Shown here one piece after another: positions 27,081-44,246 of a stretch of 64,000 nt of DNA (its first letter is position 1; each line of letters starts with the position of its first letter). The stretch covers positions 3,283,001-3,347,000 of the forward strand of contig NZ_CP146991.1 in the NCBI RefSeq assembly GCF_001941975.2, written 5' to 3'. Under the pieces are notes generated by a model, which was not told the origin of the DNA, ran no database searches, and saw nothing but the letters and a program-made list of their open reading frames with translations. Both the position numbers and the translations under genes were made by a program. This stretch comes from Sporomusa sphaeroides DSM 2875. Its GTDB lineage: Bacteria; Bacillota; Negativicutes; Sporomusales; Sporomusaceae.

Positions 27081-27118
27081 GTGAGTCAAGGAACTGTTCC
27101 TTGACTCACGTTTTTTTT
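27081..27118 (+). terminator. Terminator after the SPFH gene
   Basis: A perfect 14-bp inverted repeat (GTGAGTCAAGGAAC) followed by G and eight T. Its sequence resembles palindromes at 27899-27924 and 30334-30356. Confidence 0.9.
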
Positions 27119-27175: not shown

Positions 27176-27197
27176 ATAGCATCCGGTACTGCTTCAC
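27165..27197 (-). terminator. Terminator of the B12-reactivation-domain gene
   Basis: On the minus strand GTGAAGCA...TGCTTCAC is followed by TTTT; the hairpin overlaps the stop codon at 27194. Confidence 0.7.
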
Positions 27198-27880
27198 AGT
27201 TTGAATTTCTCTTCAAAAAGATGCTCATCATAGGGTGCCTTTCGCCCCGGACAGTTTTCCCGCGGGCATAGCTGGCAGTTTTCCCAGGAGCCCTGCTTGG
27301 GAAAGTGAATACCGGAAACACTTTTTATGGGTACCATGAGACAGCTTTCGTTAAGTCTAACCCCAATCAGAGCCTCTACATCCCCGATTAACTTAAAGAG
27401 AGGCCTCTGTTCGGTAATTGGCCAGTCAGCCAGTGAACCCGGATTCATATTGGCAGTACTCTCCAGACCCCAATGTTCATCAAGCTGCTCAAAGAAAGTC
27501 TGGCGTGTATTTTTCAGTATCATCTCGGTGATAGTGTCAGCATAGTAGTTGTCAAGCATATCCTGCTGATTTTTAGCCCAGGCGGCGAGCTCTTCCCCGC
27601 AGGTTATTACATAAGGAAATACCCGGTAAGTATCGGCAAGATTCACACTCAGCACCCGGCTGGTAAATGTTATGTCGTCGATTGTAACAGAACTCTCACT
27701 TTTTGCTTCTACAAAAGCAACTTTATATACTGCTTTGACGGTTGCAATTTTCCGGGCTGCAAGAGCTAATTCCTGAATCCCAGCAAAATGCGGGCTTTCG
27801 GCCTTCACACGCAGAACCTTACATAGCTGCTCCATATCGATAGTAATGGAATCACCTTCATATACAAGCTTGGTAATCAT
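27194..27880 (-). CDS. Methionine synthase activation-domain (B12 reactivation) protein
   Basis: A protein of 228 aa similar to the C-terminal reactivation domain of B12-dependent methionine synthase, found free-standing in acetogens beside corrinoid methyltransferases. The C-terminus shows 'ESCLMVPIKSVSGIHFP' and 'CQLCPRENCPGRKAPYD', the latter with cysteines that may hold a metal cluster. It probably helps reactivate oxidised corrinoid or supports corrinoid binding. The start at 27880 is placed by GGAAGGG. It lies next to the betaine methyltransferase island on the same strand. Confidence 0.72.
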   Translation of the reverse strand: MITKLVYEGDSITIDMEQLCKVLRVKAESPHFAGIQELALAARKIATVKAVYKVAFVEAKSESSVTIDDITFTSRVLSVNLADTYRVFPYVITCGEELAAWAKNQQDMLDNYYADTITEMILKNTRQTFFEQLDEHWGLESTANMNPGSLADWPITEQRPLFKLIGDVEALIGVRLNESCLMVPIKSVSGIHFPKQGSWENCQLCPRENCPGRKAPYDEHLFEEKFKL

Positions 27881-27898
27881 AATATCACTACCCTTCCA

Positions 27899-27924
27899 CG
27901 AGTCAGGGAACACTTCCTGACTCG
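27899..27924. repeat. Palindrome of the GAGTCAGGGAAC type
   Basis: CGAGTCAGG...CCTGACTCG, 26 bases, upstream of the B12-reactivation gene. Related palindromes occur at 27081-27109 and 30334-30356, so this is a small dispersed hairpin family. Confidence 0.6.
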
Positions 27925-28061
27925 TCCGTATTTTTAAGGTGCCTAACGAAATGAGTCAGAGAACCCGCCCTCAACTCACCCTATAATAGTTAAGTTTACT
28001 ATAGCTCAATTACCTATGATATTCAATATGTGCCATACAGTTTTTCCTTCTTTTAACAGGT

Positions 28062-28346: not shown

Positions 28347-30302
28347 TTACGACTTTAAATATTTCATGGCTACATCCTTAACCCTTGCTCCCTGTTTTAT
28401 TTCATGCAAGGCAGTATTGACATCAACCATGTTTAGTTTGAAATTCCTGATGATCTCATACAGCTCTTTATTCTCTGCTTTCAGGTCTTTTCTAACCAGT
28501 GTAGTAAGATGCTCTTCCTTGCCAAATACGCCTTTAGGGTCTTCTAAGAATTTCAAGTCATATACCGAAAATTTATAATGAGGCTGCCAGCCGGTCATAA
28601 CCACCCATTCGTTATTCCTAATCGCTTGTTCCACCGCCTGCAGCATGGTTTCCTCGTCGCTGTAGTCGATGATATAATCATGTAAATCATATACTTTTAA
28701 AGCCGTTGCCGTACATTGACTGACTTTGGTACGCCTTTGCAGCGCACATATTCTATTTCTAAATTTATATGAATGATTTTTCAGTTCCGGTATGCTCTTA
28801 ACCGTAACATAGGAGGGAACCACTAAACCGAACTTACAGCCCGGAAGGTTTGGTCCCAGATTCTCTACCTGATGTCCGTATTGCTGCTCCAATTCCTCAT
28901 CCACATAGGGCAGCCACGATGACAGCGTGACATCGGCTTTGCCTGCAGCTATCAATTTCCAGGTTTCCGGATTAGGTACAAGTATCCCTTCGGCTGCCAT
29001 ACCCAACTTTTGTCTTATTATTTCTTTTAATATTTCTACCTGAAATAGCGACTCGGTAAATTCGGTATGTGCAATCTTAACATATTTGTAGCTTTCAAGC
29101 TGAGTGGAAATCTGATCAATTTTTTGGGTCAGTTCACTGAACCTTTCGGTTATACTGCCGATGGAGTTAGCATTGTCCTGCATCGCTGCGCCTATTTCTT
29201 CAGAACTGGCTGCAGCCTCCTGGCACACCGCCGAAATGCTTTCCATATCGGCATTTATGCTTTCACTGGAAGTAGTAAGCGCATTTATTTTAGCAAAAAT
29301 ATCTTCTATTTCTTTCTCAACAACATTCATTGCCCCATTTATCTTTGAAAATGCTTCCTTGGTATTGTTTAAATGAGTTTCCTGTTCCAATACAGTTTGA
29401 TTATTGTTATTTATCACTTCTGTGGCCGTATCTATTTCACAATTAATCTTTCCAATTAATTCCCTGACTTTTACAGCCGAATTACTACACTCTTCCGCAA
29501 GCTTTTTTACTTCTGTCGCCACTACGGTAAAGCCTCTGCCGGCTTCACCGGCACGAGCCGCCTCAATAGCTGCATTTAACGCCAATAAGTTGGTTTGCGA
29601 AGAAATATTGGAAATGGTGTTAACAATTGAATTAATTTCAAGCCCATTCTTTTTCAAAATACCGATAACACCGACAACTTGTTTAAAGGATTGGATACTT
29701 TCATACAATTTTTGGCTTTGAACCTCTAAAGCCAGGTTCCCTTCCGTAACCAGCAGCATGGTTTTTTGCGAGCTGTCGTTAATCAGTTCAATTTGATTTT
29801 TTATCTCCACCACTGCCTGATACACTTTCGCCATTTTACCAGATGCTTCTGATACCGAATACGCAACTTCGGAATTTCCTTGCGCCATATAAGTCAATGT
29901 ACCTGAAATCTTATCGGTAGCTTGCAGCATGCCAGCAATATCTTTTGCCAGATAGATGCCGGTACTGCTTGCCACCCGTACCACCCCGTATATCTCGGCA
30001 ATGGTTTTCCGTATCTGTCCCGTAAATTGACTTAGCTTCCCTTCAAGCAAGCTGGCTTTGCTATTGTGATTACTACTGGAAAAATTACCGGCTATTAAAT
30101 CTTCCGCAATCTGGTCAGCAAGATTATCCTTATTGTCTATTGCTAAAGAAACCCTATCAAAAATAAGGATGAAGAATACAACAATTACTTGCATGGCCAG
30201 AAATGACCAAACGCTAATTTTTTCGTAGAAGTTTAACGAGAAATAGCACAGTATATTAATCCCTACACATACGATAGCGTTTAATAAAGGCCTGATTACC
30301 AT
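28347..30302 (-). CDS. Chemoreceptor fused to an OpuAC-type betaine-binding domain
   Basis: A protein of 651 aa. Two short membrane spans (about residues 4-24 and 30-52) are followed by a cytoplasmic methyl-accepting signalling domain (about 85-400) with the conserved hairpin tip '[20 protein letters not shown]'. The C-terminal 240 residues resemble the glycine betaine-binding OpuAC domain ('[14 protein letters not shown]' near 475, '[20 protein letters not shown]' near 578). There is no large extracytoplasmic domain, so the ligand domain should lie inside the cell. The start at 30302 follows GGGGAGTGG. It is the last gene of the betaine island and probably senses imported betaine. Confidence 0.82.
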
Positions 30303-30333: not shown

Positions 30334-30356
30334 AGTCAAGGGACTGTTCCCTGACT
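30334..30356. repeat. Palindrome of the GTCAAGGGACTGTTCCCTGAC type
   Basis: A 23-base inverted repeat just after the ASKHA gene and before the chemoreceptor gene, related to those at 27081 and 27899. Confidence 0.6.
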
Positions 30357-30362
30357 CTAGAC

Positions 30363-32330
30363 TCACCATTTTGGACGACCCAGTACTATTATCGTGATCC
30401 TTGTTTCCAGCAGGGTTTTGTCGCCTAAGCTTCTATTTGAGTCGCCATAAACCTCTTCCACTTCCATTACAATCTCAATATCGGCTGCGCCTGACTGTTC
30501 AGCCATCGCTTTTGCCTGCAATTGTCCCTGTTCGATTCCTAACTGCTTAGCCGCCGGATAGTCGGAAACCGTTTTTCTTTCCCATGGAAAATGTACGACT
30601 GCTCCATGTCCCGGCAGGGCTTTAACAAGTATCTTCAGCTTCTCGACCACCTGTCCGGCTACCGCACCAATAGCATTGGCAACATCCGCATTCTCAGGTA
30701 TAATCAATTCACAATTCAACTTCTTGGCGATCTGCGGCAAATAGGCATGAGCCGGTGCGCCGATGGCGATGATGGGATAAGTAACGTGAGCGCTTAATCC
30801 CAAAGTTTCTCCGCCTGCATAGAACGCCTGTTGGAATAAGTATTTAATGTCGTTATTCTTATGCAGCAAAATCGAACTGCCTTCATAGTTGAGCAAGCTT
30901 TGAATAACCGCAAAATAGAGATTCTCCATAATGGCAGCCCATGCCCTTGTTAAGAATTGCTCAGTATCCACGCCCAATTCTTTAGCCATAATGGCTACAC
31001 CCAGTTTCGCAGCATCAGTATCCCAGGCAGTATACTGCCCCCTAACATGCAGCAAATCGGTGGGTGTCAAGGATGTTTTAACCAAAACGCCATTTCCGGC
31101 CAGGTGCCTCAGGGCAGCTAACAGCTGATAGTCTTCCAGCCCTTCATCCTGCAGCTGCCTTGCGAGATAGTCAAAAGTGTGCGGGCCGGCTGCCAGCAAT
31201 TTTATGATACTTGTCTCCATTGCCGTGCCTTTTTCATACTTGTCTTTTACTAACATAAAAGCATCGGTAGGCTGAAAATCAGTCCAGCAGCTTTTTATTT
31301 CCGCCTGCTCTTGTATTTCTTCCTGCAGATATGGATATTGCTTAACTACCAGGGACAACGGCCACACTTTTTGGGGACCAACCACCAGCTCTTTGCCATT
31401 ATGCAGATGAATATAGCTGTCACCGCCGATGCCGTATGTATATATTTCTGCCGCCTCAACCCGTGTCAGCCAGTTATTGATCGTGGCTCCTTCCGGACTG
31501 ATGCGCGGCTTATGATTTTTTAATATCGCAATATCGGTGGTTGTTCCGCCCATATCTATGACGACAGCTTCCGGACAGCCGGCAAGCGTAGTGCTGCCAA
31601 TAACACTGGCAGCCGGTCCGGAAAGAATGGTGTCAATAGGCTTTTTCCTGGCGGTTTCCTCGTTCATCAGGGTGCCATTACCTTTTACCAGCATTAAGGG
31701 TGCCGTAATACCCATGCTGCTTATGACCGCTTTTACAGAAGTGATTAGCTCCGCGATAACCGGAATGAGTTTGGCGTTTAATACCGCCGTTACTGTCCGT
31801 TCATGGAACCCCAGTGCTGTTGTCAATTGATGGCCGCATACCACCGGAATTCCCAGCTTACTGCTGACAAGCTCGCGGGCGATCGCTTCATGCTCGGGAT
31901 TGCGGACACTGAAATAACCGGAAATTGCCACCGCTTCCACTTTGCCGTTAAACCTGTCCAGAGCTAAATGAATGCCATTAGTATCAAGCTCAGCTAATGG
32001 ATTGCCCCGCACATCATGTCCGCCGGTAACAACCTCAACATAGGGAGTCGGTATTGCAGCTATCGGCTGATGACCGATTAACAGAAGGCCAGCCTCACAC
32101 CCCCGCCCTTCAACAATGGCGTTGGTCGCCAGGGTCGTTGACAGTGCCACCCCTTTAATCCTGGTCAAATCATCAAACTGCAATGCCTGCAGACAGTTAG
32201 TTATTCCTTCCACTAAATTGCCATGTGTGGTTAGTGCTTTGGCTTTGGTAACTATTTTTTGTTCGGAATCCTCCCATATTACTCCGTCAGTATAGGTGCC
32301 ACCAGTGTCTATGCCAAGTCTAAACGCCAT
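30363..32330 (-). CDS. Hydantoinase/oxoprolinase (HyuA)-like ASKHA protein
   Basis: A protein of 655 aa with an actin-like ATPase fold: phosphate loop 'GIDTGGTYTDGVI' at the N-terminus, 'GPAASVIGST' (near residue 245) and 'VVIDMGGTTTDIAI' (near 265). The family includes hydantoinase A and 5-oxoprolinase A; related ATPases reactivate corrinoid proteins. No HyuB partner is visible. The start at 32330 is preferred over an ATG nine bases upstream that abuts the ribosome site. Operon position between BCCT carriers and the chemoreceptor suggests a role in betaine use or corrinoid activation. Confidence 0.7.
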   Translation of the reverse strand: MAFRLGIDTGGTYTDGVIWEDSEQKIVTKAKALTTHGNLVEGITNCLQALQFDDLTRIKGVALSTTLATNAIVEGRGCEAGLLLIGHQPIAAIPTPYVEVVTGGHDVRGNPLAELDTNGIHLALDRFNGKVEAVAISGYFSVRNPEHEAIARELVSSKLGIPVVCGHQLTTALGFHERTVTAVLNAKLIPVIAELITSVKAVISSMGITAPLMLVKGNGTLMNEETARKKPIDTILSGPAASVIGSTTLAGCPEAVVIDMGGTTTDIAILKNHKPRISPEGATINNWLTRVEAAEIYTYGIGGDSYIHLHNGKELVVGPQKVWPLSLVVKQYPYLQEEIQEQAEIKSCWTDFQPTDAFMLVKDKYEKGTAMETSIIKLLAAGPHTFDYLARQLQDEGLEDYQLLAALRHLAGNGVLVKTSLTPTDLLHVRGQYTAWDTDAAKLGVAIMAKELGVDTEQFLTRAWAAIMENLYFAVIQSLLNYEGSSILLHKNNDIKYLFQQAFYAGGETLGLSAHVTYPIIAIGAPAHAYLPQIAKKLNCELIIPENADVANAIGAVAGQVVEKLKILVKALPGHGAVVHFPWERKTVSDYPAAKQLGIEQGQLQAKAMAEQSGAADIEIVMEVEEVYGDSNRSLGDKTLLETRITIIVLGRPKW

Positions 32331-32421
32331 TTCCCGCATCTCCCTTCCGCAATCACACTTGTAATCCCGAACCGGACGTATCCATTGTTCTATAAGAGAC
32401 TTCTTCTATCGTTGAGGATTC

Positions 32422-33960
32422 CTACTGAGATTTCTTGTCAGATTGATTTTTTATCAAATCCTCATTCATTGCCTTAACAAATGGATATAACATAACCAAC
32501 ATGATAATCATTATAGGAAAGCCAAAAGCAACAGAAACAGATTTTACGGCATTAACTCCTCCGGTTACTACAATAATTGCCCCAACAGCTCCTTCGATAA
32601 CTCCCCAAAGCACTTTTGAAGCCTTGGAGGGATTCAAATCTCCGCCGGAGGTCATTTGCCCCAATACAGAGGTTGCCGAATCGGCAGAAGTAAGGAAGAA
32701 AGTTAAAATCAGCCCTATACAAATTGTGCTGGTTATTGCCGGTATAGGCAGATGACTCAAAGCCACAAACAATGCACTGCTAACATCTTTAGCCACGGCT
32801 GCCGCTATTCCTCCAGCTCCGTTTAAGTCGATATCCATACCTAATCCTCCGGTAATCGCAAACCAAACAAAGCTAAGCAAAGAAGGAGCAAATAAAACCG
32901 CCAGGACAAATTCCCTAATGGTGCGGCCCTTGGATATTTTGGCGATAAATCCGCCTACAAATGGCGCCCAGCCGATCCACCATGTCCAGTAAAATATGGT
33001 CCAGCTGCCAACCCAGTTATATCCCACTTTTTTGGCAACAGTTCCGGTGGCATCCAGGTAGAGACTCATCCATACAATGTTATGAAAATATTGTCCCAGC
33101 GTTTCAAAAAACATGTTAATAATATATCTTGTAGGACCAAAAACCAGCATAAACGCCATCATCGAAAAGAAAAGCACCATATTAGATTTGCTCAAAAATT
33201 TCATGCCTTTTTCAATGCCAACAGCCGAGGAAACACAAAACATCGCAGTAAGAACTGCGATAATCCCCAAGGTTACTGCCGTATTATTAGGCAGGCCATA
33301 AACAAAGTTCAAACCGCTGTTAATTTGCATGCTGCCCATTCCCAAAATATTGGCAAGACCGAACAGAGTAGTGACTACAACAAAAGAATCAATGCCTCTG
33401 CCAATAGGACCCTTGATACCTTTTTCACCCAAAATAGGATACAGGCAGGAACTGACCAAACCCGGCAATCCTTTCCGGTATTGGAAATAGCCTAAAGACA
33501 TTGCAACTACTGCGTACATGCACCATGGGTGCAGACCCCAGTGAAAAAAGGAATAACGCATAGCTATAGCTGCTGCTTCCGGGCTATTAGCCTCCCCAAA
33601 AGGCGGGTTGCCAAAATACGTCATTGGTTCTGCAATCCCCCAGAAAACAAGCCCGATCCCCATACCGGCACTAAATAGCATGGCAATCCACACATAGGTA
33701 CTGTATTCCGGTTCATCCTCATCTTTTCCAAGTTTGATATCTCCATATTTACTGAAGGCGAGAATAAGACAAAACGCCAAAAATATGGTTACCCCGCTGA
33801 TAAAGAGCCAACCAAAATATTCTGTGAAAAACTTTAAAATCTTCCCCAGATCCTCAGTCATACCTTGCGGCGTGATAACAGCCCAGCCAACAAAAATACC
33901 GGAAATAATAATGGCTGTCCAAAACATCGCTCTATCAATCTTGCCGAAAATATTAGTCAT
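32422..33960 (-). CDS. BCCT transporter, OpuD/BetP-like
   Basis: A protein of 512 aa with twelve spans. It has the glycine-rich substrate/sodium motif 'AGMGIGLVFWGIAEP' (near residue 98) and the tryptophan-rich segment 'YWTWWIGWAPFVGGFIAKISKGRTIREF' region (near 325) that forms the aromatic cage. These indicate sodium-coupled uptake of glycine betaine or a similar trimethylammonium compound. It lies 174 bases downstream of a second, divergent-type BCCT gene in the methyltransferase operon. Confidence 0.88.
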   Translation of the reverse strand: MTNIFGKIDRAMFWTAIIISGIFVGWAVITPQGMTEDLGKILKFFTEYFGWLFISGVTIFLAFCLILAFSKYGDIKLGKDEDEPEYSTYVWIAMLFSAGMGIGLVFWGIAEPMTYFGNPPFGEANSPEAAAIAMRYSFFHWGLHPWCMYAVVAMSLGYFQYRKGLPGLVSSCLYPILGEKGIKGPIGRGIDSFVVVTTLFGLANILGMGSMQINSGLNFVYGLPNNTAVTLGIIAVLTAMFCVSSAVGIEKGMKFLSKSNMVLFFSMMAFMLVFGPTRYIINMFFETLGQYFHNIVWMSLYLDATGTVAKKVGYNWVGSWTIFYWTWWIGWAPFVGGFIAKISKGRTIREFVLAVLFAPSLLSFVWFAITGGLGMDIDLNGAGGIAAAVAKDVSSALFVALSHLPIPAITSTICIGLILTFFLTSADSATSVLGQMTSGGDLNPSKASKVLWGVIEGAVGAIIVVTGGVNAVKSVSVAFGFPIMIIMLVMLYPFVKAMNEDLIKNQSDKKSQ

Positions 33961-34134: not shown

Positions 34135-35733
34135 TCAGCAGGACTCATTACCATTGCGCGGCTCAACCGGTACTTCAGTACCTGTACCTGAGGTAAAATT
34201 ATGGGGCGTTTCACAGGGTTCCGGCTGTGTATCGTTCCAGTCCTTACCTGCCTTCTTGATAAAGCCATATACAATAATCCCAATGATAAACATGGCCGGG
34301 AAGGAACTGGCAACTACTGAGGTCTGCAGCGGCTTCATACCTCCCAGGAATATCAGCGTGAGCGAAAAACCGCCTAAAACCACCGCCCAAAATACGCGAT
34401 TCCATTTTGCCGGTTCTTCGCCGGCCCCCAGCTTTGCTGTTGTTACCATAGCAAGTGTATAGGCGATACCGTTAATAACGGTTGCATTGGAGATAAACAG
34501 CAGTACCAAAACTATAGGTAAGATAATAAAGCTAATAGGCAAGGTGGAAAATATCTCGACAATGGCTCCCGGGACACCCTGGGTTTTAATAATTTTCCCC
34601 AGATTGATTACTCCCCTGGTTTGTAAGTCAAGCGTGTAGTTGCCAAATATCGCAAAATAGGTGTATACACAGGTTACACCCGAAAGTGTCGCACCCAGCG
34701 TAAACTCCCGCACTGTTCTGCCTCGGGATATTCTGGCAAGATACATCCCTGTGCTGATCGCAAAGGAAAGGAACCAGGCAAAGTAGAAGATCGTCCAGTT
34801 CTGCGGAATTCCCGATTGCTGAATCGGATCAGTATATAAGCTGATACGGAAAAAATTCGTAAGCATTACGCCCAGGCTGTCAAAGAAATTGTTAAAGATA
34901 AACGAAGTCGGTCCAGCCACCAACACAAAGGCCAGCAAACCAAAGCCCAGATAGTTCCTGAAATCACTCAGGAATCTAATCCCCTTATCCAGTCCGCCAT
35001 AGACGCAAATGGCCACAAGAATTGTCCAGCTAACCAGCAGCGCCGCATCCATGCCCAGCGTGTGCGGTATACCCGTGATCCTGGTAATAACCTCGCTTAA
35101 AAGCGGTGTCCCCAGACCGATGGAGGTACCAATGCCGGCGATAATACCAACCATATAAAAAACATCAATGGCCTTACCGACATATCTGCCGCCGTACTCG
35201 CCCATGAATTCCTGGCAAGCCGCACTGGGCCTGAATACATCTGTACCCTGCACAAAGAATATGTAGCCAAATACTACGCCAATCCCCACATAGAGAGCAT
35301 AGCTGCTCGGCCCCCAGTTAAGCAGCGGATACGCGGAAGCCATTGCCGCGGCCTGAGGTGAGAACGGTTCCAGGCCAAAAGGCGGTTCTGACAGATACAT
35401 GTAGAACTCAATGGGAGCCCAATACACAATGGCTGCCGTCGTGCCTGCGGAAAACAGCATCCCCAGCCAGCTCAAAGTGCTGAATTCGGGTTTATCGCCG
35501 CCAAAACGTTTATTGGCAAACTTGCCAAATACAAAATAAAGCACCACGGCAAAATTAATCAAAACAAAGAGCTGATATGTCCATCCCAGCGGGCCGCTTA
35601 AAAACGCAAATACTTTATTTGCGGTGGCAGAGCTCGCCTCGGGATTAGCGATAATTGCTGCACTAATAATCCCAACCAATACTAAGGGCGGCCAAAACAA
35701 CAGTTTATCAATTGCACCACTATCTTTTTTCAT
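34135..35733 (-). CDS. BCCT transporter with altered glycine-rich motif
   Basis: A protein of 532 aa with twelve spans and the family segment 'FYFAWFLSFAISTGMYLARISRGRTVREF' region (near 320). The usual 'GMGIGLxFWGxAEP' stretch is replaced by 'AGTTAAIVYWAPIEF' (near residue 96), and the 'WWxxWxP' tryptophans are partly missing. This suggests a different cation requirement, as in the sodium-independent exchanger CaiT, or another substrate. AGGGGGAATGG precedes the ATG. It follows the first MttB gene by 181 bases and is probably cotranscribed with it. Confidence 0.82.
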   Translation of the reverse strand: MKKDSGAIDKLLFWPPLVLVGIISAAIIANPEASSATANKVFAFLSGPLGWTYQLFVLINFAVVLYFVFGKFANKRFGGDKPEFSTLSWLGMLFSAGTTAAIVYWAPIEFYMYLSEPPFGLEPFSPQAAAMASAYPLLNWGPSSYALYVGIGVVFGYIFFVQGTDVFRPSAACQEFMGEYGGRYVGKAIDVFYMVGIIAGIGTSIGLGTPLLSEVITRITGIPHTLGMDAALLVSWTILVAICVYGGLDKGIRFLSDFRNYLGFGLLAFVLVAGPTSFIFNNFFDSLGVMLTNFFRISLYTDPIQQSGIPQNWTIFYFAWFLSFAISTGMYLARISRGRTVREFTLGATLSGVTCVYTYFAIFGNYTLDLQTRGVINLGKIIKTQGVPGAIVEIFSTLPISFIILPIVLVLLFISNATVINGIAYTLAMVTTAKLGAGEEPAKWNRVFWAVVLGGFSLTLIFLGGMKPLQTSVVASSFPAMFIIGIIVYGFIKKAGKDWNDTQPEPCETPHNFTSGTGTEVPVEPRNGNESC

Positions 35734-35914: not shown

Positions 35915-37315
35915 TTATCTTTTGCTGGCGATATAGCGCTGCAGCTCAGCGTCTACATCCTCAGGCAATACTGGTTGTACGTATTCCTCCAGCATCTTTT
36001 TCCAGCGTGCATTAGCCCGCTCTTCTATCGTCAGACCGTCTTGGTTAACTCTGGCTCTGTCACTCAACTGAGCCTGATAAAACTCTTTACGGAAATGAGC
36101 GAAGGTATGTTTGTTGGTGATATATTCGCCGCGGGGACCGACCTGTTTAGCGACATCGAATGCCAAAGTCTCGTCATTTACGGTAACGCCCCGGCCAATC
36201 CGTTTTACCATCCCGATAATTTCATCGTCGATCATTAATTTCTCGAAAGATACACAATTATAAGTATCCAAAATACCGGCAGAGTGGAGAATGAAGTTGC
36301 CGCCGGCCATTTGCGCCATCATCAGGGTCATCATAGACTCATAACCTGCCTGGGCGTCGACCTGTTTACTGTCAGAGAGAGTACCGCTTATCCGGCAGGG
36401 AATCTTATAATATTTTGCCAGGTGTCCATTGACCAGCGAGAAGAGAGCGCTTTCGGGGGCGCCAATGGACAGGTTGCCATAACGCATATCGGTACTGGAA
36501 CCGGAAGCAGAATAGACAATAGGAGTGCCGGGACTTACTAACTGAGCCAAAACAATCCCTGCCAAAATTTCCGCATTTTGCACGGCGATGCTTCCGGCAA
36601 TAGTTGCCGGCGAGGTGGCTCCGGCAAGGCAGAGCGAGTTAACCAGCTGCGGCTGGCGGTATTCGGCATAAGCGATGATGGCGCCGGCCATTTTGTCGTC
36701 ATAGCTAAGTGGCGTCAAGGTGCAAGGAATAGAAATAATTACAGGCTTATCTTTGATGGCGTCCAGACCGCCATGAGCAATTGCTGCCATTTCAATGTTT
36801 TCTTTGGATGCTTCATAGCCCAAAACACTGCCCATAAGCGGTTTATCACTGTATTTAATGGTGTTGTAAACCATATCCAGATGACGGGTGTCAGCATCCG
36901 TATCGCCAGGTTCGCAGGGGATATGGCTTTGAACGTCGATATTGTTCATCATTTGGCATAATTTTACCAGCTTGATAAAATCATCCAAGGTGCCTGGACG
37001 CCGGCCATTATCCAGATCCATGACGAAAGGCGCACCATAAGGACCCACAAATCTCGTCTCTTCCGTATTAAACTCAACGTTCTTTTCCGGGTTGCGGGCA
37101 TGCAGGGTAAACGAGGAGGGAACATGCTTCAGTTCCCGTTCCACCATACCTTTAGGGAAATAGACTGTTTCTCCCTCAACTTTAGCGCCGCCTTTGGCCA
37201 AAATCTCCCGGGCCGGCGCGTAACTAAAGATAACGCCGACTTCCTCCATGATTTTAAGCGAGGTTTGATGGATTGTCTCGATATCCTCTGTGCGAACTGT
37301 CTGATATCTTTGCAT
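35915..37315 (-). CDS. MttB-family (non-pyrrolysine) quaternary amine methyltransferase 1
   Basis: A protein of 466 aa of the trimethylamine methyltransferase superfamily. Diagnostic stretches are 'VGPYGAPFVMDLDNGRRPGT' (near residue 90), 'NAEILAGIVLAQLVSPGTPIVYS' region (near 250) and 'QAGYESMMTLMMAQMAGGNF' (near 325). The frame is open throughout with no internal amber codon, so it is an MtgB-like enzyme that demethylates a quaternary amine such as glycine betaine. It is preceded by its methyl-THF methyltransferase and corrinoid protein and followed by two BCCT carriers. Carnitine or proline betaine are alternative substrates. Confidence 0.85.
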   Translation of the reverse strand: MQRYQTVRTEDIETIHQTSLKIMEEVGVIFSYAPAREILAKGGAKVEGETVYFPKGMVERELKHVPSSFTLHARNPEKNVEFNTEETRFVGPYGAPFVMDLDNGRRPGTLDDFIKLVKLCQMMNNIDVQSHIPCEPGDTDADTRHLDMVYNTIKYSDKPLMGSVLGYEASKENIEMAAIAHGGLDAIKDKPVIISIPCTLTPLSYDDKMAGAIIAYAEYRQPQLVNSLCLAGATSPATIAGSIAVQNAEILAGIVLAQLVSPGTPIVYSASGSSTDMRYGNLSIGAPESALFSLVNGHLAKYYKIPCRISGTLSDSKQVDAQAGYESMMTLMMAQMAGGNFILHSAGILDTYNCVSFEKLMIDDEIIGMVKRIGRGVTVNDETLAFDVAKQVGPRGEYITNKHTFAHFRKEFYQAQLSDRARVNQDGLTIEERANARWKKMLEEYVQPVLPEDVDAELQRYIASKR

Positions 37316-37371: not shown

Positions 37372-38172
37372 TTATTCTTCATAAATCCCTTTACGATGAG
37401 CTTTTAAATAGCCCATGCAGTAATCATCTTTGCCTAACAGCGTCGCGCCGGCGTAAATGACTCCCATCATGCTCTTATCGGTAGGATTCAAAATATAGCC
37501 GTCCATTCCCAGGGTCATAGTCTGAGCCACAAATAACCGGTTCAGCACTTTCCTGTTAGGCAGCCCGTACGACACATTGCTCAGACCGCACATAAAGTGA
37601 ACGTCAGGATAGTTCTGTTTTATCAGCTTGATGGTCTCCAGCACTTCGACTCCTGCTGTCTGCACACTGCTTACCGGTTTTACCAAAGGATCAAAATAGA
37701 TATCGTCATCCTTAACCCCTGCCGCAGTCAGTTTGCGATACAGGCTGTCCACCACCCGCATCCGGTCTGCCGCTGTCTCCGGCATCCCATGATCGTCCAT
37801 GCACAGGGCGACTACTTTGGCTTTATACTTCAGTACCAAGGGCAGGATGGCCTCAAATCTTGGACCCTCGTCGGTAATGGAATTAATCATTGGTGTACCG
37901 TATTTAGCCAAGGCCAAACCGGCTTCCAGCGCCTGCGGGTTGGGGCTGTCGATACAAAGCGGCGCCTGCACGGCTTCCTGAATGGTAGTTACCAGCCACT
38001 GCATATACTCCACTTCATTAAACACCTTATTGCCGCAATTGACGTCAATATAGTTAGCGCCTGCGTCTAATTGCTCCCGGGCCACTTGCTGAATATATTG
38101 GGCATCTTTTCCTTCAACGGCTTCACTGATGGCTTTTCGGCTGGTATTAATCAGTTCTCCTACAATTAGCAC
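37372..38172 (-). CDS. Methyl-THF:corrinoid methyltransferase (MtgA-like)
   Basis: A protein of 266 aa with the same pterin-binding barrel as the protein at 9.5-10.3 kb ('VGELINTSRKA', 'YIDVNCGNKV', 'CIDSPNP', 'CGLSNVSYGLP'). It uses a GTG start at 38172 behind GGAGGTTACATT. It passes the methyl group from the corrinoid protein to tetrahydrofolate during betaine demethylation. It lies 15 bases after the corrinoid gene and 56 bases before mttB1, completing one three-part system. Confidence 0.88.
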   Translation of the reverse strand: MLIVGELINTSRKAISEAVEGKDAQYIQQVAREQLDAGANYIDVNCGNKVFNEVEYMQWLVTTIQEAVQAPLCIDSPNPQALEAGLALAKYGTPMINSITDEGPRFEAILPLVLKYKAKVVALCMDDHGMPETAADRMRVVDSLYRKLTAAGVKDDDIYFDPLVKPVSSVQTAGVEVLETIKLIKQNYPDVHFMCGLSNVSYGLPNRKVLNRLFVAQTMTLGMDGYILNPTDKSMMGVIYAGATLLGKDDYCMGYLKAHRKGIYEE

Positions 38173-38187
38173 AATGTAACCTCCATT

Positions 38188-38826
38188 TTAGTTTTTGGCC
38201 ACAATCTTAGCAGATATTTCCTTGCAAGCCACCGCATCGACACAATAGCCGTCAGCGCCGATTTTTTCGGCAAATTCCGGATATAAGGGAGCGCCGCCAA
38301 CCAGCACCTTCACCTTATCTCTCAAGCCGGCTTCGGTGATGGCATCAATAGTATCCTGCATGGCCATCATGGTAGTGGTAAGAAGCGCGCACATGCCGAC
38401 AATCTGTGGCTTATGCTCCTTGATAGCCTCAACAAAAGCCTCTGGTGTAACATCCACACCCAGGTCCACTACATTGAAGCCGCCGCTTTCCAGCAGCATG
38501 ACTACCAGATTTTTGCCGATATCGTGCAAATCGCCCTTTACCGTGCCCATGACAAAGGTGGATACATTAGCCGAATCCTCCGCCGATAACAGCGGCTTAA
38601 CAATGGTTAACCCTTCAGACAAAGCTTTGGCCGACATCATAACTTCCGGAATAAACATTTCGCCTGCCTTGAACTTGGGCGCAACGATGTCCATGCCGGC
38701 CAGCAAGCCCTTGCTGACGATCTCCATCGGCTTTACACCGGCTGCTATCATCCCCTGGGTAATCGTCTTTACCTCTTCATCATCACCCTGATACACCGCT
38801 TCTGCTAACTTTTCGAAATTGCTCAT
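38188..38826 (-). CDS. Corrinoid protein 1 of the betaine island
   Basis: A protein of 212 aa with a helical cap and a cobalamin domain with 'DLHDIGKNLV' (near residue 105), 'GMCALLTTTMMAM' and 'LVGGAPL'. It differs from corrinoid protein 2 (40.8 kb) at about eleven positions only. The start at 38826 follows a strong TAGGAGG; an in-frame upstream ATG at 39012 would run through the sigma-54 promoter and is rejected. It is the first gene behind the promoter at 38896-38911. Confidence 0.9.
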   Translation of the reverse strand: MSNFEKLAEAVYQGDDEEVKTITQGMIAAGVKPMEIVSKGLLAGMDIVAPKFKAGEMFIPEVMMSAKALSEGLTIVKPLLSAEDSANVSTFVMGTVKGDLHDIGKNLVVMLLESGGFNVVDLGVDVTPEAFVEAIKEHKPQIVGMCALLTTTMMAMQDTIDAITEAGLRDKVKVLVGGAPLYPEFAEKIGADGYCVDAVACKEISAKIVAKN

Positions 38827-38895
38827 ACAATATCTACCTCCTAAAATTTGAATTTTGCTTTCCTTCAGCGTTATTGTGCCGTCACTTTTAACTAT

Positions 38896-38911
38896 TGCAC
38901 AATTCGTGCCA
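38896..38911 (-). promoter_or_regulatory. Sigma-54 promoter of the corrinoid 1-mtgA-mttB1 operon
   Basis: The minus strand reads TGGCACGAATTGTGCA, with GG and GC 12 bases apart. It lies 70 bases before the ATG. The same 16-mer occurs at 41553-41568 and a close variant at 42561-42576. Confidence 0.8.
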
Positions 38912-39147
38912 CCCTTTTTTGCAGGCGATAAAAATAGTGTAAAGAATGGAAATTTTTTAAAATTACTCATTTTTTTCAATAAACTATTCGTAATAAAAGC
39001 ATTTTGGGGCATTTTAGCCGGTAAACCCGGGTGCCTAGATTAACCACTTTCCCTGAAAACCACGAAATCAGTGCCGCGGACCTTCCCTACCGAAAGGATT
39101 CCTTTCACTCAAATACAGGAAAATTACAGCTACTGCTGTCATTATTT

Positions 39148-39384: not shown

Positions 39385-40797
39385 CTAGCCCAGTTTATCA
39401 AGTTCTGCCTGGTTAAGCCCTTTATCTGCGAGATATTTTTTAAGCTCCCGGACAGTAGCCTCAGGCAGTTCCGGTCTTGCGTACGCTGCCAGCATTTTAT
39501 CCATCTTTTTATTGATATTCTGCAGTATTTCTTGGTTTGGATCACCGGTAACAGCCCCTTTAAGGCTGATTTCCGGTAAGAAAGATTCTTTACGGCAATG
39601 CCGCATAGTATGAGTCTGAGTTAAGAAATGACCAGCAATGCCTACGTTATTAATTACATCAATAGCAAGAGTCTCCTCGTTAACCTCTATCCCTTTTAAG
39701 AAACGTCTGACCATACCGATAATCTCAAAATCCGCAATCAGCTTTTCATAACTTATGCAGCTATAACTGTCAACAATACCGGCAGCATGGATAATGATAT
39801 TGGTTTTTGCCCCATGTGCGGCCAACAGTGTGAGCATACTCTCATAACCGGCTTGTATTGACAGCGACTTCGCATCGGTTACAGCACCACCTCCCCGGCA
39901 AGGAAGTCCATAGGCCTTTGCCAGCCGCGCCCCGTACTGATAACATAACGCTCCTTCCGGCGAACCACTGGCAATACTGCCGCTCTTCATATCAGAGGTG
40001 GTGGTTTGGGTTCCGTATACCACAGGTGTGCCTGGATTCATCATCTGAGCGACGGCAATACCGGCCAAAACTTCTGCATTATGCAAGGCCATTGTGCCTG
40101 CCAGGGTTATCGGCGCAGTCGTCCCCGCCATAGCGCAGGCCGCAATAACTGCCGGCTGAGAATACTTAGTAAAGACTAATAAGGTCTCTAACATCGTACG
40201 GTCTAACTGCAGCGGCGTATTAGTATTGACAATGGTCGTCGCCCTGGGCTTATTTACCAAGTCAGCTTTACCAAAAACGATGCCTAACATGTCCATAAGC
40301 GCTTCTACCTCATCGGCTTTGCCTGATCCGGTAACAATGCATTTATCGGAATGCAGCAGTGTAGCGTATAACAAGGCACCGATACCCTGGTCAGCCGGTT
40401 GGACAATCATCCCTCCATTGGCGTTAAAATGGTCGCATTGTTGATAAAGCTTCAAAAACCGGACATAATCCTCCATTTGCGCCGGCCGCTTGCTGCCATC
40501 AAGCTCCAGTACGAGCGGCGGACCATAGGCGGGGAAGCACTCGACGTTATCGCCGCCCACGGTAATATCATACTTGGAATTACGCGCATACATCGCAAAG
40601 GACGACGGAGCCTTGCCAATCCACTCCAGCAGTTGTTCTTCGGTAAAATAAGCCGTTTGCCCGTCAACCTTGATTCCGTTTTTCTGTAAAAGCTCAATTA
40701 CGTCCGGATGAAGAAACTTCATGCCGGTTTTTTCAAGAATTTTCACCGTTGCCAGATGTATCTGCTTTAAGTCTTCCGTCATAGTCGCTACACTCAT
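39385..40797 (-). CDS. MttB-family (non-pyrrolysine) quaternary amine methyltransferase 2
   Basis: A protein of 470 aa, a diverged relative of the protein at 35.9-37.3 kb: 'AYGPPLVLELDGSKRPAQ' (near residue 92), 'NAEVLAGIAVAQMMNPGTPVVYG' region (near 245) and 'QAGYESMLTLLAAHGAKTN' (near 320). There is no internal amber codon. AGGGGG places the start at the ATG at 40797. It is paired with corrinoid protein 2 but has no methyl-THF methyltransferase of its own, so it may share the one at 37.4 kb. The nearby proC remnant hints at proline betaine; that is inference. Confidence 0.84.
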   Translation of the reverse strand: MSVATMTEDLKQIHLATVKILEKTGMKFLHPDVIELLQKNGIKVDGQTAYFTEEQLLEWIGKAPSSFAMYARNSKYDITVGGDNVECFPAYGPPLVLELDGSKRPAQMEDYVRFLKLYQQCDHFNANGGMIVQPADQGIGALLYATLLHSDKCIVTGSGKADEVEALMDMLGIVFGKADLVNKPRATTIVNTNTPLQLDRTMLETLLVFTKYSQPAVIAACAMAGTTAPITLAGTMALHNAEVLAGIAVAQMMNPGTPVVYGTQTTTSDMKSGSIASGSPEGALCYQYGARLAKAYGLPCRGGGAVTDAKSLSIQAGYESMLTLLAAHGAKTNIIIHAAGIVDSYSCISYEKLIADFEIIGMVRRFLKGIEVNEETLAIDVINNVGIAGHFLTQTHTMRHCRKESFLPEISLKGAVTGDPNQEILQNINKKMDKMLAAYARPELPEATVRELKKYLADKGLNQAELDKLG

Positions 40798-40827
40798 GTC
40801 CATCCCCCTATTCTTATCCCTTTTCTG

Positions 40828-41466
40828 TTAGTTACCGGCCACTATCTTAGCAGCCATTTCCTTGCAGGCCACGGCATCGACACAATAGCCGTCAGCCCCG
40901 ATTTTTTCGGCAAACTCCGGATATAAGGGAGCGCCGCCAACCAGCACCTTCACCTTATCTCTCAGGCCGGCTTCGGTGATGGCATCAAGAGTATCCTGCA
41001 TGGCCATCATGGTAGTGGTGAGCAGTGCGCACATGCCGACAATCCGGGGCTTATGCTCCTTAATGGCCGCAACAAAAGCCTCTGGCGTAACATCCACACC
41101 CAGATCTACTACATTGAAGCCGCCGCTTTCCAGCAGCATGACTACCAGGTTTTTGCCGATATCATGTAAATCGCCTTTTACCGTGCCCATGACAAAGGTG
41201 GATACATTGGCCGAATCCTCCGCCGACAACAGCGGCTTGACAATGCTCAGCCCTTCGGATAAGGCTTTGGCCGACATCATAACTTCCGGAATAAACATCT
41301 CTCCGGCCTTGAACTTGGGCGCGACGATGTCCATGCCGGCCAGCAGGCCCTTGCTGACAATCTCCATCGGATTTACCCCGGCTGCTACCATACCCTGGGT
41401 AATTGTCTTTACCGCTAAATCATCACCCTGATACACCGCTTCTGCCAGCTTTTCGAAATTGCTCAT
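40828..41466 (-). CDS. Corrinoid protein 2 of the betaine island
   Basis: A protein of 212 aa, about 95% identical by eye to corrinoid protein 1, with 'DLHDIGKNLV' and 'LVGGAPL' intact. The start at 41466 lies behind the same GGAGGTCGG-type site. Its high similarity to copy 1 points to recent duplication or gene conversion. It is the first gene behind the sigma-54 promoter at 41553-41568 and forms an operon with mttB2. Confidence 0.9.
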   Translation of the reverse strand: MSNFEKLAEAVYQGDDLAVKTITQGMVAAGVNPMEIVSKGLLAGMDIVAPKFKAGEMFIPEVMMSAKALSEGLSIVKPLLSAEDSANVSTFVMGTVKGDLHDIGKNLVVMLLESGGFNVVDLGVDVTPEAFVAAIKEHKPRIVGMCALLTTTMMAMQDTLDAITEAGLRDKVKVLVGGAPLYPEFAEKIGADGYCVDAVACKEMAAKIVAGN

Positions 41467-41552
41467 ACAGTACCGACCTCCTAAAAATTTGGTATTGATT
41501 ATACGCATAATGACACCGGTAAAAACGTGCTTGTGCCACTGCCCATAACTAT

Positions 41553-41568
41553 TGCACAATTCGTGCCA
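41553..41568 (-). promoter_or_regulatory. Sigma-54 promoter of the corrinoid 2-mttB2 operon
   Basis: TGGCACGAATTGTGCA on the minus strand, identical to the site at 38896-38911, 87 bases before the ATG. A further TGGCAC lies in the early transcribed region, as in the variant upstream of proC. Confidence 0.8.
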
Positions 41569-41574
41569 CTTATT

Positions 41575-41600
41575 GATTATGTTGCAAAAATAACATAATC
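41575..41600. promoter_or_regulatory. Inverted repeat, candidate activator site
   Basis: GATTATGTT and AACATAATC form perfect 9-base arms around an 8-base spacer, just upstream of the sigma-54 promoter. A weaker version lies at the same relative place upstream of proC (42583-42607, GAATATGTT/AACGTATTT). It suits a dimeric RocR-like activator. Confidence 0.55.
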
Positions 41601-41609
41601 TCTTTTTCA

Positions 41610-41682
41610 AAAACCAGCAAGACGGGGGACGGTGGTATCGTCTTACCAATTCAAGCAAGACAATGCCACCGCCCCCCGTCTT
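41610..41682 (-). terminator. Long hairpin after the proC remnant
   Basis: AAGACGGGGGACGGTGG (41619-41635) and its near complement (41666-41682) flank about 30 bases; on the minus strand GCTGGTTTTTG follows. It is a probable terminator. Confidence 0.65.
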
Positions 41683-42776: not shown

Positions 42777-44246
42777 ATGGTAAAAAAAACGTATGAAGAG
42801 CTGGAGTCTGAAAACCGCTTATTGCATGCCATGTTTGATGTAGTATCCGACGGGGCTTATGCAGTAAGCGTGGATGGCACTGTTCTCTTCTACAACAAAG
42901 CCTTTGAAAAAATGGAGGGGACAACCCGCAGCCAGATGGTGGGAAAAAAAGATTTTGACGTATATCCGGGATTTGAAAACTTCCAGCGGCATGTTGTATG
43001 CAAAAATCCCGAACCATTGCGGGATCAGCATATGACCTATACGTCGATAAGCGGCAAAAAAGTTGATATTGTATATAATTCCTACCCGTTTTTTCAGGAT
43101 GGAAAATTATCTGCCGTCATTTCCATTGGCAGAGATAAGCCCTCCATAAACGAATTAGTTACCATGGTGCTAAATTCATTTAACAGTAAAAAATCTAACA
43201 GAGTCACCAATGGCACCATCTATACGTTGGAAGATATTATCGGCAGCAGTACCGTCATCCGGCAAACCCTGAAACAAGCCCGCAAAATGGCGCAGAGCCA
43301 GTCTACCGTCATGCTTGTGGGGGAAACAGGCACAGGTAAAGAGTTGTTTGCCCAAGGTATACATAACGCCAGTCCTTACAAATCCCGCCCCTTTATTGCC
43401 GTAAACTGCGCCGCAATCCCGGAAACACTGATGGAAAGCCTGATGATGGGAACTGTAAAGGGTGCATTTTCCGGAGCATTGGATACGCCCGGTTTTTTTG
43501 AGCAGGCTGAAAATGGAACTTTATTTTTAGATGAAATAAACTCGCTGTCTATTTCCTTGCAAGCAAAACTGCTAAGATTACTGCAGGATAAAAAAATACG
43601 ACGCCTGGGCGATAATAAAGAACGCAAGATTTCGTGCCGGATAATCAGTGCAACCAATCAGGACTTATTTGCGCTGGCAAAGAGCGGCCTTTTCCGTGAA
43701 GATCTGTTATACCGTTTGACTCCCGTTATTGCGGATATTCCGCCCTTACGTGAGCGGTTAGAGGACATACCGCTGCTGGCAAGAGAATTTGTAGACCGCT
43801 TTAACGATGAACTGGCGCTAAACATAAAAATCATATCCCAGGATTTGATGCAGCTATTTTTATATTACCGCTGGCCGGGAAATGTGCGTGAATTGGAGCA
43901 TATCATTGAAAGCGCGATGAGCCTGGCCGAAAATACAGAAACCATATTATCCAGGGAGCATCTGCCCAGGATGTTAAAAAAGAGACTGATGAGTGATCAA
44001 ACAAAGTCCGGCTCAAGTGATAGTGAAGCAGGTGCCAATAAGTCGCTAGCCGAACTGTTGCGTCAATACGAGAAAGAAACCATTGAAAACGCACTGATAC
44101 TAAAGAATGGGAACGTAAGCCAGTGCGCTATTCAACTGGGAATTACCAGGCAAAATTTGCATTATCACCTCCGCCGGCATGGAATTAAAGCTGTTTTGTA
44201 TAAAGCCCAGTCTGTCGGCGATGCAACAGATTCCCCTGTGCCTTAA
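42777..44246 (+). CDS. RocR-like PAS/sigma-54 activator of the betaine island
   Basis: A protein of 489 aa. A PAS sensor (about residues 8-120) is followed by an AAA+ domain (about 150-385) with Walker A 'GETGTGKE' and 'LFLDEINSL', and a Fis-type HTH (about 430-472, 'NVSQCAIQLGITRQNLHYHL'). The sigma-54 contact loop reads GAFSGA instead of GAFTGA within 'GTVKGAFSGA', the form seen in the RocR group. GGGAGG precedes the ATG. It is divergent from proC and lies beside three sigma-54 promoters, so it is the obvious regulator of the betaine genes. Confidence 0.88.
   Translation: MVKKTYEELESENRLLHAMFDVVSDGAYAVSVDGTVLFYNKAFEKMEGTTRSQMVGKKDFDVYPGFENFQRHVVCKNPEPLRDQHMTYTSISGKKVDIVYNSYPFFQDGKLSAVISIGRDKPSINELVTMVLNSFNSKKSNRVTNGTIYTLEDIIGSSTVIRQTLKQARKMAQSQSTVMLVGETGTGKELFAQGIHNASPYKSRPFIAVNCAAIPETLMESLMMGTVKGAFSGALDTPGFFEQAENGTLFLDEINSLSISLQAKLLRLLQDKKIRRLGDNKERKISCRIISATNQDLFALAKSGLFREDLLYRLTPVIADIPPLRERLEDIPLLAREFVDRFNDELALNIKIISQDLMQLFLYYRWPGNVRELEHIIESAMSLAENTETILSREHLPRMLKKRLMSDQTKSGSSDSEAGANKSLAELLRQYEKETIENALILKNGNVSQCAIQLGITRQNLHYHLRRHGIKAVLYKAQSVGDATDSPVP

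Follow-up and report, generated by a model that had tools for sequence, protein, structure and literature searches.

The substrate-binding domain of lactococcal OpuA, an OpuAC-family domain fused to a permease (PDB 7ahc; see also 3l6g and 3l6h), is extracellular and serves uptake. Extracytoplasmic OpuAC proteins bind betaine at the micromolar level, and in their pocket glycine betaine is gripped at its carboxylate by a clamp that includes a histidine and a glycine. In Halobacterium salinarum, CosB is a separate, extracellular protein which acts on the transducer CosT from outside, and McpX of Sinorhizobium and PctD of Pseudomonas mediate taxis to choline- or betaine-like compounds by means of extracellular Cache-type sensors. 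The hairpin tip of a methyl-accepting chemotaxis protein (MCP), in turn, must meet CheA and CheW in the cytoplasm. For CosB/CosT, compatible-solute taxis that involves a betaine-family binding protein and trimethylammonium compounds has been described (PMC4230888). Solute-binding proteins (SBPs) acting on receptors from outside are well known, and SBP profiles also match sensor domains and cytosolic proteins (PMC9602780). Titles and abstract openings returned by literature searches for a chemoreceptor with an OpuAC or C-terminal binding domain contain no description of this arrangement.

The protein described here is encoded in a 64,000-nucleotide stretch of the genome of Sporomusa sphaeroides DSM 2875 (the window). 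It shares fold and family with the lactococcal OpuA domain, its best match in both sequence and structure, but is fused to an MCP instead of a permease, is predicted to be intracellular and has its clamp histidine and glycine changed. Unlike OpuA, it has no ABC genes among its scanned neighbours (0 of 9 co-scanned proteins is an ABC protein), and as its OpuAC domain moreover follows an MCP hairpin, it does not present itself as the SBP of an ABC transporter. Nor is it of the CosB-CosT type, since the binding domain is built into one polypeptide, C-terminal to the signalling hairpin, and is predicted to lie inside. From McpX and PctD it differs in having an OpuAC domain, predicted to be cytoplasmic, at the opposite end of the protein. 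On balance, we regard it as probably a membrane-anchored chemoreceptor whose ligand is an intracellular small methylated amine, probably a quaternary one. This suggests that the acetogen Sporomusa may steer by a methylated amine already imported, not by its level outside.

Domain layout and topology of the receptor

The receptor gene and its parts are the following (window positions):

28347..30302, minus strand: chemoreceptor gene, 651 aa, with membrane hairpin, MCP signalling hairpin and C-terminal OpuAC domain (ORF and Pfam)
30231..30290, minus strand: first membrane span, residues ~5-24 (hydropathy)
30144..30212, minus strand: second membrane span, residues ~31-53, after a short inter-span loop, extracellular sensor absent (hydropathy)
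29082..29972, minus strand: MCP coiled-coil hairpin, residues ~111-407 (PF00015 and PDB matches)
29517..29564, minus strand: hairpin tip, residues 247-262, expected to bind CheA/CheW (sequence)
28350..29081, minus strand: OpuAC (PF04069) solute-binding domain, residues 408-651, predicted cytoplasmic (Pfam, PDB and Foldseek)
28587..29060, minus strand: stretch with the mapped pocket residues F415, W463, D468, K526 and W572 (alignment)

The reading frame starts with an ATG at 30302, just preceded by GGGGAGTGG, and its stop codon ends at 28347. The 651 aa and the extent given in the initial annotation are thereby confirmed; the mechanical ORF, which begins at an upstream TTG, comprises 657 aa. 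The same annotation had placed the MCP domain ahead of the solute-binding domain and had described a pair of close N-terminal spans without a sensor between them, and both descriptions hold. Pfam locates MCPsignal (PF00015) at residues 201-359 (1.3e-36, 126.5 bits vs a cut-off of 34.6) and OpuAC (PF04069) at residues 408-650 (1.1e-48, 166.5 bits vs 21.2), the latter matching over its full length (profile positions 3-256 of 257). In a hydropathy scan (19-residue mean, threshold 1.2) values above the threshold are confined to residues 1-27 and 25-58, and the maximum past residue 70 is 1.16. No HAMP domain was detected by Pfam at E 0.01 in the receptor, in which about 50 residues separate the spans from the hairpin. 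The tip is mostly invariant in our alignment (A1), and residues 357 and 364 mark two consensus-like methylation sites, which are pattern matches only. By its signalling domain and conserved hairpin tip the protein would thus be a methyl-accepting chemotaxis protein.

A hidden third span ahead of the OpuAC domain was considered and rejected on the basis of the hydropathy scan. As the scan shows no re-crossing of the membrane between the tip and the OpuAC domain, we infer that this domain should lie in the cytoplasm, on the same side as the CheA/CheW-binding tip. The intracellular position originally proposed for it is supported by this reasoning, with no span past residue ~60.

Relatives and distribution

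Sporomusa malonica DSM 5090 encodes an intact orthologue that is 84% identical over all 651 residues (hairpin 92.3%, OpuAC 82.8%). For the OpuAC domains of the two proteins we obtained dN = 0.089 and dS = 0.603, i.e. a dN/dS of about 0.15, which indicates that the sensor part is kept by purifying selection. Two distant fusions (L008, L009; 660 and 661 aa, both intact) are 29-30% identical to the receptor. The intact orthologue and these two homologues together exclude a chance fusion, a frameshift or an assembly error.

The full fusion is present in 2 of 12 family-sample genomes including our own, in 2 of 300 class-sample genomes (our own and S. malonica) and in 3 of 398 phylum-sample genomes, again including our own; the other two phylum hits are L008 and L009 from one genus, in which 2 of 3 genomes carry the fusion. 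A search of nine Sporomusa genomes returned a match spanning the OpuAC domain only for our own genome and S. malonica, and among 481 matching plasmid records none covers 80% of the receptor query. With E limits of 1e-50 to 1e-60, and with scoring restricted in the large samples to the first 3-4 candidates of each genome, these searches could have missed fusions of greater divergence. They covered the phylum of the window, plasmids and viral contigs, in addition to one peptide-pattern scan of genome contigs that detects close relatives only. The viral-contig scan gave no relative with the receptor domains as query and a single, circularly permuted one with 27 OpuAC proteins.

An OpuAC profile search of the 398 phylum genomes yielded three MCP fusions among the 98 matches listed. 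Five further frames exceed 400 aa; of the three that were read (those of G346 and G037 being left out), two are permeases with tandem binding domains and one is a read-through before a binding protein. OpuA-type permeases with two tandem OpuAC domains (L114 1762-4365 and L115 2477-5065; 863-868 aa) occur in large genomes of one family. A single origin of the fusion is conceivable, as the four fusion domains group together in the OpuAC tree (97/90), but this grouping carries a long-branch warning and was obtained with a comparison set picked by similarity to these domains. Betaine genes were not found beside the distant fusions in the stretches read, which amount to just 6.6 kb for one of them. 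Both distant receptors are adjoined by a further, divergently oriented MCP frame whose N-terminal region is long (L008 3-926 and L009 3721-4761).

Gene neighbourhood

The receptor gene lies beside an island of genes with a putative role in methylated-amine metabolism:

42777..44246, plus strand: sigma-54 dependent activator carrying a PAS domain, in divergent orientation to the island
40828..41658, minus strand: second corrinoid protein
39385..40803, minus strand: second MttB-superfamily methyltransferase (profile)
38188..39012, minus strand: corrinoid protein, start probably internal (profile)
37372..38172, minus strand: methyltetrahydrofolate:corrinoid methyltransferase, MTII (profile)
35915..37315, minus strand: MttB-superfamily methyltransferase, MTI (profile)
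34135..35733, minus strand: BCCT transporter 1 (BCCT1), CaiT model 657 vs cut-off 541 (profile)
32422..33960, minus strand: BCCT transporter 2, near the glycine betaine uptake model with 633.5 bits vs cut-off 650 (profile)
30363..32339, minus strand: hydantoinase/oxoprolinase-family gene directly upstream of the receptor, 60 bp gap (Pfam)
27194..27913, minus strand: small protein with a match to the methionine synthase activation domain, 26.2 bits vs cut-off 25 (Pfam)

The initially proposed connection with the BCCT and methyltransferase genes upstream is borne out insofar as two of the four Sporomusa copies of the island that were examined are accompanied by the receptor. In S. malonica the order is activator, corrinoid protein, MTII, MTI, BCCT, activation-domain protein and receptor, and the activation-domain protein, a possible corrinoid reactivator, adjoins the receptor in both copies. 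In two other Sporomusa genomes, G003 and G005, the island occurs but the receptor is missing; in the island of G003 a BCCT was not found and the activator is in two frames.

No terminator-like site was detected on the coding strand between the hydantoinase-like gene and the receptor. The 60-bp gap contains a 23-bp palindrome of the AGTCARGGAACNGTYCCYTGACT type (30334-30356), and co-transcription of the two genes, although presumed here, is therefore not certain. Palindromes of this type recur at 27084-27106, after the downstream neighbour of the receptor, with a weaker copy in between (27898-27925), and are found at five places genome-wide at ≤2 mismatches; they are possibly a small dispersed element. 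Sigma-54 promoter patterns (19 matches vs 14.3 expected) are not significant as a whole. A 58 kb betaine cluster that is under sigma-54 control and responds to betaine by induction is reported for S. sphaeroides KIAC (PMC12456013). A figure legend of another study lists MTI, BCCT and RACE genes together with a 'ProX' gene for loci including S. ovata (PMC9768040).

BCCT1 (34135-35733) has FAWF in place of WAWW as its substrate box and a threonine where CaiT has Met331; the carrier is possibly a substrate/product exchanger. S. malonica and genome G006 encode a conventional dCache chemoreceptor near an MtgB-type cluster (L112 1232-3304 and L113 17594-19657), so that S. malonica may watch one amine outside and another inside the cell.

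Pocket residues and structure model

Pocket residues were mapped by alignment to 28 comparison proteins, i.e. 27 high-scoring proteins of the phylum sample, with frames of 285-358 aa, and lactococcal OpuAC (3l6g). As a reference we took the pocket residues W72, W178, W225, G26, I27 and H230 of Bacillus subtilis OpuAC, which fit the spacing of the alignment. Hereby, F415, W463 and W572 of the receptor correspond to W178, W225 and W72. All 28 comparison proteins possess tryptophan at the three cage positions as well as the clamp histidine, and 27 of 28 the clamp glycine. The aromatic cage, whose absence had been named as evidence against betaine binding, is present in the receptor and its S. malonica orthologue as F415, W463 and W572 as far as the sequence alignment can tell, with phenylalanine for tryptophan at one position; W463 and W572 align with two cage tryptophans of the lactococcal OpuA domain. 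In the same two proteins the clamp histidine is replaced by Asp468 and the clamp glycine by Lys526. Thus, the Sporomusa pair looks as if the quaternary-nitrogen site is kept and the acid-end site changed. The distant fusions retain all five residues (Trp, Trp, Trp, His, Gly) and therefore look closer to a glycine betaine pocket than the Sporomusa pair; they show PEV vs PHW in the 28 comparison proteins (PHY in the window).

The best solved relatives of the domain are the lactococcal OpuA domain (3l6g, 2.1e-42) and ProX (3tmg, 1.4e-35). A structure model computed with four alignment rows reached a mean pLDDT of 63.8 and a pTM of 0.61 (mean pLDDT 36 without relatives), with 89 of 248 residues below a pLDDT of 50, nearly all of them in domain residues 83-195, the second lobe. 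In the structure prediction suggested for this domain, the two-lobed OpuAC fold is matched (3l6g: Z 17.9 and rmsd 3.9, with 222 residues aligned; liganded lactococcal form: Foldseek 4.6e-16), but the model is of moderate confidence and its poor second lobe is too uncertain for the geometry of the cage.

Sensing mechanism and candidate ligands

If the receptor senses an intracellular methylated amine, the two N-terminal spans would serve as an anchor only. The helix that leads back from the hairpin tip ends next to the membrane, which would bring the OpuAC domain near the inner membrane face and so near the point at which the BCCT carriers release their substrate. Ligand binding would close the two-lobed domain, which would pull on the hairpin base, alter its packing or twist and thereby change CheA activity, with methylation giving adaptation. 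Made together with the demethylation enzymes, the receptor would report the intracellular pool of the imported substrate or product, amounting to metabolism-coupled taxis; the ligand class and the direction of the response are presumed here.

A plausible though tentative candidate for the ligand is a longer or hydroxylated relative of betaine (L-carnitine, gamma-butyrobetaine or choline) or the demethylated product, for which Lys526 and Asp468 would re-form the polar end of the pocket. The clamp changes are common to both Sporomusa proteins and BCCT1 exceeds the CaiT cut-off in our own genome and in S. malonica. Furthermore, the island methyltransferase is distinct from MtgB: it is about 45% identical to the MtgB-type enzyme that is encoded elsewhere in our own genome, and against the solved glycine betaine methyltransferase of D. 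hafniense (9yce) it scores 478.5 bits compared to 744.6 for the MtgB-type enzyme. Our own MtgC reaches 410 vs a model cut-off of 310, and the island corrinoid protein with 218 vs 370 stays below its cut-off. On the other hand, the pocket structure is unreliable and the CaiT-type call is weak. Three BCCTs that are 72-74% identical to BCCT1 and share its FAWF motif adjoin MtgB-type genes in other Sporomusa, and at the two of these loci that were compared the methyltransferase is 84-87% identical to our own MtgB-type enzyme. The CaiT match thus does not fix the substrate of the island, and we discarded it as decisive evidence for carnitine or gamma-butyrobetaine, both of which we keep as possibilities.

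We consider it rather unlikely that glycine betaine in particular is what the receptor senses inside the cell. The receptor belongs to the OpuAC family, its closest solved relatives are betaine-binding proteins and its aromatic cage is kept; upstream of it are BCCT genes, one near the glycine betaine uptake model, and the similarity of BCCT1 to carriers beside MtgB-type genes points in the same direction. Against this stands the replacement of the clamp residues in both Sporomusa proteins at positions that are conserved in 28 and 27 of the 28 comparison proteins. Moreover, our own MtgB-type and MtgC genes lie elsewhere, and no receptor of the OpuAC kind is found in the 20 kb read there. With the carboxylate clamp altered, glycine betaine is not established as the ligand, and the betaine specificity initially annotated is, in view of Asp468/Lys526, the separate MtgB-type gene and the divergent island enzyme, not supported as stated; any quaternary amine, glycine betaine included, is a possible ligand. 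In addition, if the cell stores betaine as an osmolyte, an intracellular OpuAC sensor of micromolar affinity would be saturated.

Given Asp468 and Lys526, the OpuAC domain may also bind something else, or nothing. A domain which has lost small-molecule binding and either is decaying or serves as a docking site or scaffold, for instance towards a BCCT carrier or enzyme, would agree with the changed clamp residues and the long branch in the OpuAC tree. We judge this improbable, and the dN/dS of about 0.15 together with the kept cage speaks against decay, though not against docking.

An OpuAC domain outside the cell, due to an inverted topology or to just one of the spans being real, would match the characterised OpuAC proteins, which act outside the cytoplasm, but is hardly credible as the tip has to reach CheA/CheW in the cytoplasm and the interval between tip and OpuAC domain is free of spans. 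A general statement on SBPs may be cited in its favour (PMC9602780).

Other chemoreceptors of the genome

Our own genome contains 51 MCP loci (52 match rows, two apparently within one gene). The residues following the tip were counted for 48 of them, with L048, L057 and L060 left out as the tip motif was not found; hereby, 34 of 48 have 145-149 residues, nine have 71-77 and five more than 270. With 389 residues, the receptor comprises the usual hairpin plus about 244 residues, which indicates that the OpuAC domain was added at the normal hairpin end.

One of the other loci (L044 1964-3784; G000:C1 ~3216463-3218283, outside the window) encodes a soluble MCP with a C-terminal Phosphonate-bd domain of the PhnD type (5.6e-56). 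Like the OpuAC receptor, it has a solute-binding domain attached where the MCP hairpin ends and lacks any span able to bring this domain outside; it differs by its PhnD-type domain and by the absence of membrane spans, owing to which its solute-binding domain cannot be extracellular. As judged by reading the sequences, its gene lies between a GlpC/GlpB-like (glycerol-3-phosphate dehydrogenase-like) pair and pyruvate kinase, and the protein is a possible intracellular sensor of a phosphorylated metabolite. Two more MCPs (L036/L052) have a C-terminal Cache domain, in one case sCache_3_3 (1.1e-27) after a membrane hairpin and in the other dCache_1 (6.3e-20) in a spanless protein; L050 is the remaining MCP with more than 270 residues after the tip. 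Together with the OpuAC receptor, L044, L036 and L052 show that mainly extracellular sensor domains are repeatedly placed at the inner end in this genome.

It is nearly an even question, in our estimation, whether some chemoreceptors have turned the SBPs of ABC importers into intracellular gauges of substrates that are imported by unrelated carriers. Our own genome would then hold two independent cases, the OpuAC receptor for methylated amines and the soluble PhnD-type receptor near glycerol-3-phosphate and pyruvate kinase genes. If so, the cell would swim by uptake and metabolism and not by outside concentration. Whether cells steer by the outside level or by the imported and metabolised substrate is a long-standing question, usually studied via redox or energy sensors; an intracellular ligand domain of the well-understood SBP type would open this question to experiments in which ligand, carrier and enzyme are all defined. 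It would also show that an SBP profile alone does not mean extracellular binding or transport. In a search at E 1e-35 the OpuAC subtype of the receptor had no further member in our own genome. A conventional OpuAC-family binding protein (L001) is encoded there between genes which, from their sequences, appear permease-like and ATPase-like.
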